From Methanotorris formicicus Mc-S-70 (lineage in GTDB: Archaea > AGJL01 > Methanococci > Methanococcales > Methanococcaceae), in NCBI RefSeq assembly GCF_000243455.1, contig NZ_AGJL01000017.1:1-32761 (forward strand): a stretch of DNA of 32,761 nucleotides, written 5' to 3'. The notes beneath the pieces were generated by a model. That model saw only the letters and a list, made by a program, of their open reading frames with translations. It made no database searches and was not told the DNA's origin. The stretch's first letter is position 1; the number at the start of each line of letters is the position of its first letter. Below, piece by piece: positions 3,059 to 5,599 of the stretch. The translations under genes were made by a program, and so were the position numbers.

Positions 3059-3271
3059 TTAACTAACCGTGATTACCTTTACTCCCATAAAACAACAATC
3101 CATAATACTACAGAATTAAAAAACTTAAATATAACAAACTAAAAAATAAAAATAGAATACAAAAAATATTATCCTTTAATGGGGATTAAGATATTAAATA
3201 TAATATTAAATTAATTATAAAACTTTAAGTTATTTAACTCCTTTGGTCATAAATTCTTTGTGGTGATATTT

Positions 3272-4237
3272 ATGTTTTTTAAAAAACTATCAACAATTGA
3301 GAGGATATACAACATTGGGTTGGAGTTGGAACATTTGGATGAGATATTCGAAAAAATAACCAAATTTTTAATAGAGTTTGAGGAAGACATAATAAAAACC
3401 TACGCCTCAAGTGTCTTAAATGAGATAACAGTAGAGAACATAATGACAAAAGACGTTTTAACAGTTCCAGAAGATATGAACTTGGAAAAATTTGAAAAAC
3501 ATATTAGAGAACATAAGCATTTGGGTTATCCTGTTGTTGATGAGAATGATAATATCCTTGGTATTGTAACCTTCAATGATTTAAAAAAGATTGGAAAGGA
3601 GTTATTTAAAAAATTTAAAGTTAAAGATGTGATGACCCCTGAGAGTAAGTTGGTAACCGTCTCTCCAAAAACAAGTGCAGCAGACGTCCAAAAAATTATG
3701 TGGAAAAATGATATTGGAAGGATTTTAGTTGTTGATGATAAAAACAATTTACTTGGAATTGTAACAAAAAGTGATTTATTGAGGGCATCAGTAATTTTAC
3801 TCAACGAAATGCCAAAAATAACAGAATGCAAACACATAACAAACTTTTATTTTTACGATAGGGATGCATCAAAGATAAATAAACTTGCCGATGATATGGT
3901 TGTATTGCTTGGTGCGAGGGGGTATATTGTCTCAGAAAAAGAGGGGTATATTGAGATATTGACAAGAGATTGGGAACCACTTGCAAAAATAATGAAGAGT
4001 AAAAATAAGATAGAGCATATAACTATAACAACAAAAACTTTAAACCTAATAGATGAGAAGATAGCCAAAGAGGTCATAAACCTCATTGAAAAATATGCAT
4101 TTGAGGAAATTATAATAACTGATCACATCACACTAATTAATGAGAGATCTTCTATTATTAGGGTAATAACTGATATAACATCATTCAGAGATAGCAAAAA
4201 AACCTTTGGAACTGTAACTATTAGAATAGATTTCTAA
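3272..4237 (+). CDS. CBS-domain-pair protein with archaeal C-terminal domain, function unknown
   Basis: The 321-residue protein starts with a charged helical segment (about 1-50). Two CBS domains follow (about 55-170), visible as ENIMTKDVLTVPED...GYPVVDENDNILGIVT and VKDVMTPESKLVTVSP...ILVVDDKNNLLGIVTKSDL. CBS pairs usually bind adenosyl ligands such as AMP, ATP or SAM and regulate an attached or partner protein. The C-terminal 125 residues match no domain I can name. A GTG at 3260 is in frame, but GGTGAT at 3262-3267 is correctly placed for the ATG at 3272. It is the first gene of a tight run (24 nt to the next) that includes mmp7, so a regulatory link to methanogenesis is possible but unproven. 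Confidence 0.85.
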   Translation: MFFKKLSTIERIYNIGLELEHLDEIFEKITKFLIEFEEDIIKTYASSVLNEITVENIMTKDVLTVPEDMNLEKFEKHIREHKHLGYPVVDENDNILGIVTFNDLKKIGKELFKKFKVKDVMTPESKLVTVSPKTSAADVQKIMWKNDIGRILVVDDKNNLLGIVTKSDLLRASVILLNEMPKITECKHITNFYFYDRDASKINKLADDMVVLLGARGYIVSEKEGYIEILTRDWEPLAKIMKSKNKIEHITITTKTLNLIDEKIAKEVINLIEKYAFEEIIITDHITLINERSSIIRVITDITSFRDSKKTFGTVTIRIDF

Positions 4238-4261
4238 AACTTAAAAATATGAGGTGGTAAG

Positions 4262-4666
4262 ATAAAGGTTCTTGGAATAGATGTGTCTGGGAGGCATGAT
4301 GTGTATGGGAAATTTCTAAGGCTCTATGCAGGAATTTTGGCTGAGATATCAGCAGATAGGGTAATACATGTTGAAAAGATAGAGGTGTATTACTCAGAAA
4401 GTTCAACACAAACGCCAAAGGATATAATAAAAGAGGTTAAAGAATTAATGGGTAAAATAAAAGGAAACTACGACTACATAGTTTGTGAGAAGGGGGAATT
4501 TTTTAAAATCCCAAAAGAACACGTTTCAAGTTTGTTGGGAAAGGAAGTTATTCATCCAAAAACTTTGGGGGAATTGGAGTTGGTGAATATTGCCCATCAT
4601 GTTTCTTACTCATGTAGAAAATTATTGTTAAGGGAGTTAGAATTAAACAATTTGGAATCAAAATGA
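4262..4666 (+). CDS. Small conserved archaeal protein with RNase-H-like N-terminus; probable ATA start
   Basis: Read from ATA at 4262 the protein has 134 residues and begins (M)KVLGIDVSGRHDVYG. That is a beta-strand ending in an Asp, as in RNase-H-like/actin-like folds. The rest includes DYIVCEKGEFFKIPKEH and a C-terminal helical tail. The only conventional start, GTG at 4283, would remove this strand and its Asp and has no ribosome site. GGTGG at 4253-4257 lies exactly nine nt before ATA, the spacing seen throughout the window. The upstream in-frame stop (TGA at 4250) excludes any other start. It resembles small uncharacterised archaeal families (possibly DUF2209), which I could not verify. 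It ends 21 nt before mmp7, suggesting co-transcription. Confidence 0.7.
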   Translation: MKVLGIDVSGRHDVYGKFLRLYAGILAEISADRVIHVEKIEVYYSESSTQTPKDIIKEVKELMGKIKGNYDYIVCEKGEFFKIPKEHVSSLLGKEVIHPKTLGELELVNIAHHVSYSCRKLLLRELELNNLESK

Positions 4667-4687
4667 AAAGGTTATTTTGGTGGAAAA

Positions 4688-5599
4688 ATGTATGAAATTG
4701 TTAGATATGAAGGAGGAGTATATAAGAATAATATTTTAAAGGAATGGATTGAAGATATAGGTGGCTTTGTTATTCAGGAGCATGTCATGCAGTTGGATGT
4801 TTATATGACCGTTGCTTTGCCTCAAAGTGAGATTGAGGCATTTAAAGAAGAGGCTAAGAAATATAAGGGAAAGGTTGTTGAGACGCCATTGGCAGGGATT
4901 GAGATAGCAGTTGTTGCCCCAAGTTTGTCAAGGCACCACCTTCCACACACCGCATGTGATATATCAGAATACGTTAGGAGATTTGGGGCAAAGCCAAATA
5001 TGATAGGTCTTGCACACGGAGCAGGAAAAAATATAAGTAGAATTAGCGAGAGAGAGAAGAAACTCATAGAAGAGCATGATGTTGCAATATACGTAATGGG
5101 TAATTTTGAAAATTGCATAAAAGACAAAACCCATTTATTTGATGTAGATATTCCGGTAGTTGTAACTGGAGGACCGGAAGAGTTGGATATCCCTTACCCG
5201 TATGTTGGAAACTTGGGAAGGAGGGCACATAGGTTGAGACACGGGGAAGAGACCAGGGCATTGAGAAAGATGGTAGATGTTGTTACAGATTTGATAAATG
5301 AAAGAAGGAGAGAACTCTCCTACGACCCCCCAATTGTGCCACCAGTTGTTGTTAAGGATGAGATTGAAAAGAGGGTTGAGGAGGTATTTAACATACTTTC
5401 TCCAATGCCTATTGTTACGCAACTTGATGGTTTGAGGATTAAGATGGATTATGATAAATACAAGGATAAAATTGCAAATGTTAAAGTAGGGAATTACGTT
5501 TTAAAAGATATTGCATATATAACAAGGTCTATGATGAAGAACTACATTCTTGTAAAGATAAAACCAAAATCAGAAGTTGAATTTGAATTAAACAAATAA
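4688..5599 (+). CDS. mmp7: Methanogenesis marker protein 7 (Mmp7)
   Basis: The 303-residue protein matches methanogenesis marker protein 7, a family found essentially only in methanogens. In other methanogens it is reported in the component A3a/activation complex that reduces and activates methyl-coenzyme M reductase with ATP and other Mmp proteins. Supporting segments are the N-terminal MYEIVRYEGGVYK, the LSRHHLPHTACDISEYVRRF region with conserved His and Cys, GLAHGAGKNISRISEREKK, VVVTGGPEELDIPYPYVGN and the YDPPIVPPVVVKDEIEKRV stretch. GGTGG at 4679-4683 is nine nt before the ATG. It sits between two small unknown genes (21 nt and 14 nt gaps) that are candidates for the same process. Confidence 0.87.
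   Translation: MYEIVRYEGGVYKNNILKEWIEDIGGFVIQEHVMQLDVYMTVALPQSEIEAFKEEAKKYKGKVVETPLAGIEIAVVAPSLSRHHLPHTACDISEYVRRFGAKPNMIGLAHGAGKNISRISEREKKLIEEHDVAIYVMGNFENCIKDKTHLFDVDIPVVVTGGPEELDIPYPYVGNLGRRAHRLRHGEETRALRKMVDVVTDLINERRRELSYDPPIVPPVVVKDEIEKRVEEVFNILSPMPIVTQLDGLRIKMDYDKYKDKIANVKVGNYVLKDIAYITRSMMKNYILVKIKPKSEVEFELNK

Follow-up and report, generated by a model that had tools for sequence, protein, structure and literature searches.

The AUA codon at positions 4262..4264 of the plus strand was concluded, from sequence comparisons, to be the genuine and conserved start codon of a DUF2209 protein gene in Methanotorris formicicus Mc-S-70 (genome G000), where it stands behind a strong Shine-Dalgarno (SD) sequence. 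The window, the whole stretch of DNA analyzed, was contig NZ_AGJL01000017.1, positions 1-32,761 (32,761 nucleotides). The best explanation, which we consider to be probable, is that this AUA is the true start codon, is usable through its strong SD, and is presumably kept weak by selection. The arrangement of an SD with an AUH codon (AUA, AUU, or AUC; H = A, C, or U) was conserved across species: 8 of the 15 gene-bearing genomes of the order had it without a canonical codon just ahead and 6 more had it with one, and it was also found at 18 of 76 loci outside the order.

All of the features of this region are on the plus strand. A gene for a CBS-domain protein (3260..4237) ends 25 nt upstream of the ATA, and the DUF2209 gene (4262..4666; 134 amino acids) is followed by mmp7 (methanogenesis marker 7; 4688..5599; TIGR03274, 469.6 bits), which has a normal ATG start. 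A preliminary description of this DNA had named mmp7 in connection with the unusual codon; the codon belongs to the DUF2209 gene and not to mmp7, and the location beside mmp7 was correct in that DUF2209 lies just upstream of it. mmp7 was also downstream of DUF2209 in the congener (G001, the only congener compared) and at 9 of the 12 Methanocaldococcaceae loci searched, while the CBS gene, among 26 loci searched, adjoined the congener's copy only. By direct reading, positions 4250-4285 are TGA GGT GGT AAG ATA AAG GTT CTT GGA ATA GAT GTG. The in-frame TGA (4250..4252) is the upstream bound of the DUF2209 frame, the SD (GAGGTG; 4251..4256) lies 5 nt ahead of the ATA, and the GTG at 4283..4285, which is codon 8 and the first canonical in-frame codon, comes just past the invariant Asp7 and was rejected as a start (see below). 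As described previously, no ATG, GTG, or TTG was found in frame between TGA 4250 and GTG 4283.

SD strength was expressed as a simple match score to GGAGGTGATC, devised for the present analysis, and genes were represented by greedily chosen ORFs of at least 80 codons. GGTGG (4253-4257) precedes ATA 4262, with a spacing of 5 nt between GGTG and ATA. In a survey of ATGs within the first 60 ORF codons having GGTG at most 13 nt ahead, this spacing of 5 nt was found for 10 of 13 ATGs in the window and, in samples of two related genomes, for 88 of 188 ATGs from G001 and 90 of 183 from G028, in agreement with the earlier claim that the ATA is placed at the modal distance. ATA 4262 had an SD score of 11.5; no other codon among the first 40 of each of the window's 29 ORFs reached a score of 11 at a spacing of 5 or 6. 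Of the interior Ile codons, none in the G001 sample (n = 8,579) and two in the G028 sample (n = 18,689) were preceded by a score of at least 10.5 at a spacing of 5. Among the codons with a score of at least 11 at a spacing of 5 or 6, 4 of 24 (G001 sample) and 8 of 35 (G028 sample) were not start-like, and SD strength alone is, therefore, no proof of a start.

The protein matched PF09974 (DUF2209) with 117 bits (curated cut-off, 26.8) at residues 5-122. In comparisons using an AlphaFold2 model (pLDDT of 93), the structures that could be aligned included Pyrococcus horikoshii RNase HII (1uax; Z of 11.8, rmsd of 2.9, 124 aligned residues), for which the alignment started at residue 1 in both proteins, and endonuclease V (6ozi; Z of 11.2, rmsd of 2.5, 115 aligned residues). 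The sole match with an E-value of 0.001 or less by Foldseek was 2dff (6.7e-4). The model places most of the domain in a predicted RNase-H-like fold of the RNase HII/endonuclease V group. RNase HII has an Asp-Glu pair that closes strand 1. The DUF2209 protein was not assigned as RNase HII because this pair was absent in all 24 rows of the alignment, in which Asp7 was followed by Val, Ile, or Met, and never by Glu. Ten positions were invariant among the 24 sequences, including D7, S9, G10, H12, E76, E104, and H112; judged from this conservation, D7, E76, E104, and H112 would be compatible with a putative metal site. The DUF2209 profile (residues 2-69, positions 4265-4468 of the window) also matched SRP54 chains with E-values of 1.1e-5 and weaker; since the model is RNase-H-like, this match is probably due to a short shared motif.

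DUF2209 was present in 15 of the 36 genomes of the phylum: both genomes of Methanotorris, 13 of 14 of the Methanocaldococcaceae, and none of the 20 others of the window's own family. The preliminary description had proposed comparing the codon in sister genomes, and this comparison revealed ATA (G000, G001, and G025) or ATT (11 genomes) in 14 of the 15 gene-bearing genomes, and GTT in G031. The congener has GAGGTGATAAG-ATA. In 8 of the 15 genomes, ATA or ATT was at the SD spacing of 5 with no canonical codon just ahead. ATA or ATT was found in 12 of the 13 gene-bearing Methanocaldococcaceae, 6 of which had no ATG or GTG just ahead. In six further genomes of the order, ATT was preceded by ATG (four) or GTG (two). 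G031 has ATG-GTT, and AUH is, therefore, not indispensable. As a separate observation, DUF2209 matches were found in two different frames at G022:C8:8902-9290 (L017 and L019).

A scan of named genome records found 182 places encoding relatives, of which 80 were kept, 76 of these being outside the order; two of the 76 (L370 and L372) showed no motif and were left unclassified. Most of the 76 loci did not have AUH at the position of residue 1: the codon six before Asp was ATA or ATC in 18, TTG in 11, and ATG in 2. The 18 AUH loci (referred to as Methanothrix-type) comprised 15 named Methanothrix, Methanosaeta, or Methanotrichaceae and three uncultured ones, and their usual motif was GGGGTTGAATAG-ATA. 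The best SD register was at a spacing of 5 in all 18, with scores of 6.5 to 8.0. A long upstream frame (213-245 codons) stops anywhere between -67 and +1 at these loci, and the SD spacing is constant at 5; therefore, the SD, rather than coupling, seems to determine the site. TAG or TGA was located directly before the ATA or ATC at 16 of the 18 loci (e.g., L333, L344, L348, L357, and L359). Methanosarcinaceae loci typically carry ATG one codon earlier. At two loci from Euryarchaeota MAGs (L350 and L352), the first canonical codon in range is a GTG located two codons in. At four others (L347, L358, L377, and L397), Asp is preceded by no canonical codon, and the position of residue 1 is not AUH. 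In L358, L377, and L397 (near position 1500), a haloarchaeal-type leader was observed, with no ATG, GTG, or TTG from the in-frame TGA to Asp.

Among the alternatives to initiation at the AUA, a downstream start survives best, and even this appears to be quite unlikely. In this explanation, translation begins at GTG 4283 in the window genome and at other GTG or TTG codons in the relatives, and AUH is a mere Ile codon or part of a leader. GTG 4283 is indeed the first canonical codon, and 6 of the 8 genomes of the order with AUH only have GTG (+2) or TTG (+3), which would retain Asp7; outside the order, GTG is the fourth codon at 12 of the 18 Methanothrix-type loci, and L350 and L352 have the GTG described above. 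However, strand 1 of the model comprises residues 2-9, and GTG 4283 (residue 8) is at the end of this strand; its use would cost nearly the whole strand together with Asp7, which all 24 aligned sequences share. The conserved-looking strand with an Asp before this GTG had been pointed out previously, and this point was strengthened by the alignment; a protein starting at GTG 4283, the condition under which the AUA start would have been abandoned, is improbable given both features. In addition, the SD score of GTG 4283 was 4 versus 11.5 for the ATA, and none of the 14 other gene-bearing genomes of the order shares this GTG, its place being taken by ATA, ATT, ATC, or GTT. SD scores were also low for the GTG and TTG codons of the AUH-only genomes (3 to 5) and for the fourth codon of the 18 Methanothrix-type loci (3 to 6). 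No canonical codon was present before Asp7 in the window genome and G025 (in the latter, none until +36), or before Asp at six of the Methanothrix-type loci.

The true start may instead be codon -1, as an ancestral ATG, with the AAG, AGG, or ACG found there being decayed or non-canonical starts; we regard this as very unlikely. Codon -1 was ATG in 5 of the 15 genomes, GTG in 2, and AAG, AGG, or ACG in 8 (G000, G001, and six Methanocaldococcaceae), all of the latter differing from ATG by one base, and the Methanosarcinaceae loci have ATG at the matching place. On the other hand, codon -1 is only 2 nt from GGTG in the genomes that have GGTG at a spacing of 5, and ATGs were rare at that distance (5 of 188 and 5 of 183 in the G001 and G028 samples, respectively). 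AAG and AGG are also the poorest near-cognate start codons. The older state and the order of events were not fixed by a Rio2 tree: the AUH-only class and the class with a canonical codon before needed four changes, but supported branches forced only one, and 85 of 500 shuffles were equal.

Recoding, in which ribosomes would enter from an upstream frame by shifting frame, by reading through TGA 4250, or by reinitiating after termination on the CBS gene, is similarly given very little probability. This explanation is suggested by the ATG at 4249, from which a frame of three codons runs across the SD, by the end of the CBS gene at 4237, and by the stop codons directly before the ATA or ATC of the Methanothrix-type loci. 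However, among the 26 loci searched, the CBS gene was found beside the congener's copy only, the position of ATG 4249 reads TTG at 9 of 13 Methanocaldococcaceae loci, and the upstream frame of the Methanothrix-type loci ends at variable positions while the distance between the SD and codon stays the same. Furthermore, the RNA around the start showed no marked fold (z of 0.28), and no Rfam matches were found within 3900-4900. A sequencing error, or a recent change of ATG to ATA confined to the window genome, both raised in the preliminary description and the latter resembling what seems to have occurred in an ammonium transporter gene of G028 (see below), is practically negligible because the separately assembled congener also has ATA, and ATA or ATT is present in nearly all of the gene-bearing Methanocaldococcaceae. 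The remaining option of that description, a real AUA start, was supported by the SD spacing and by the conserved AUH in relatives, and the limiting effect on expression proposed with it would fit.

In initiation at AUA 4262 as preferred here, the strong SD would hold the 30S subunit at the codon, on general knowledge of initiation. Met-tRNAi would pair with A and U and mispair at the third base, and the protein would still begin with Met. Initiation at AUA would be inefficient, and the fidelity factor aIF1 may reject it; selection may retain the weak codon as a means of providing the low, stringency-dependent supply that is wanted of a nuclease-like protein with a predicted RNase-H fold. That scarcity of this protein is the desired state would be a further guess. 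The downstream mmp7 retains its own SD and AUG. Since a gene wanting mere low output could lose its SD, the retention of both a strong SD and a weak codon suggests that codon identity, and hence initiation stringency, sets the output. The AUH start probably keeps expression low and sensitive to the stringency of initiation. In terms of annotation, a gene finder limited to ATG, GTG, and TTG would clip the first strand of the DUF2209 protein.

The infC gene of Escherichia coli, encoding IF3, has a strongly conserved AUU start and is autoregulated, its product being the repressing fidelity factor. The DUF2209 gene is similar to infC in that a start codon of the AUH type at the SD spacing is conserved across species. 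They differ in that the DUF2209 gene is archaeal and its product is no initiation factor; moreover, the archaeal fidelity factor aIF1 itself starts with ATG at all of the loci examined. Gvozdjak and Samanta (2020) reportedly described bacterial genes preferring non-AUG starts. A non-AUG start is common to those genes and the present one, but the codons here are AUA, AUU, and AUC, and are archaeal and conserved in an order. The study by Gvozdjak and Samanta is cited in PMC9094748. AUU, AUC, and AUA are described as start triplets found in bacteria and discriminated by IF3 in a section of PMC4611024. In passages of PMC6237735 and PMC8211752, aIF1 is reported to discriminate against non-canonical start codons in Sulfolobus, which provides a biochemical ground for the expected weakness of AUH starts in archaea; these passages name no natural gene with an AUH start. 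A literature search, the scope of which excluded most subscription journals, found no report of archaeal AUH starts being conserved, nothing on the start codon of Rio2, and no paper containing DUF2209. AUH starts are already known in bacteria.

DUF2209 was not the only gene with such a start. A scan for strong-SD codons without a near canonical start gave 4 AUH rows (three genes) versus 2 control rows (AAG and AGG) in a 400-kb sample of G001 (387 ORFs), and 7 AUH rows versus 3 control rows (AAG, AGG, and CTG) in an 800-kb sample of G028 (818 ORFs). Orthologs were compared for five of the scan genes; further AUH rows came from L075 and from a TPP enzyme in L188. For the Rio2 kinase, 30 loci (L091-L120) were obtained from 36 genomes of the order, and the best-SD codon was AUA, AUC, or AUU in 27 and GTG in 3 (SD scores were only 6 for L119 and L120). 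No canonical codon was in range in 21 of the 30 loci, and the window's own genome (G000:C32 11672) has GGAGGTGCAAAT-ATC. Outside the order, ATG was available in all 13 Rio2 loci examined, with GTG having the better SD in 5.

A signal-peptidase-like gene (in G000, C48 at about 1171-1389), the product of which matched peptidase S26 with an E-value of 0.0004 and 20.8 bits (below the cut-off of 22.9), was compared using 26 of 30 loci (L121-L147; L141, L148, L149, and L150 were left out). The best-SD codon was AUH in 24 of the 26, ATG in G025, and TTG in G021; 20 had no canonical codon in range, and L137 had an SD score of only 5. This start shifts along the protein alignment yet remains AUH, mostly at a spacing of 5, and this speaks for the codon being under selection. 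The fourth gene encodes a GTPase that we take to be HflX-like, with Pfam domains being found by a search. Its best-SD codon was AUH (ATT or ATA) in 12 of the 14 loci used (L201-L214; the rest of the 30 loci matched at 33% identity or less), and the start in Methanotorris was different. This gene is only a possible AUH gene because an in-frame ATG that overlaps the SD lies five codons upstream at 5 of the 14 loci, and ATG-ATT is present at one (G024).

The AUH set of Methanococcales (Rio2, signal-peptidase-like, DUF2209, and possibly HflX-like) may represent a start-codon-fidelity regulon that tracks the aIF1 level or the state of the small subunit; we advance this idea tentatively and consider it to be rather doubtful. 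If true, Rio2, a kinase for small-subunit maturation, would be under ribosome feedback, as an archaeal counterpart of infC. Archaea would, provided that AUH starts are selected, offer a natural gene set for in vivo studies of start-codon discrimination by aIF1. In these genomes, a gene finder using ATG, GTG, and TTG only would also truncate Rio2 and the signal-peptidase-like protein or displace their starts.

As controls, ATG was the best-SD codon in 11 of 11 loci for mmp7, and aIF1 had ATG in all 23 loci examined (of 30 loci; 37 genomes searched) and was not included in the AUH set. Two other candidates were rejected. The ammonium transporter gene (L231) had ATA in G028; of the 16 other loci compared, 11 had ATG at this position, and in the remaining five a contig end came first or the position could not be aligned. 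This ATA looks private to G028. The nucleotidyltransferase-like gene (L060) was not supported as an AUA gene, its relatives having ATG further in.
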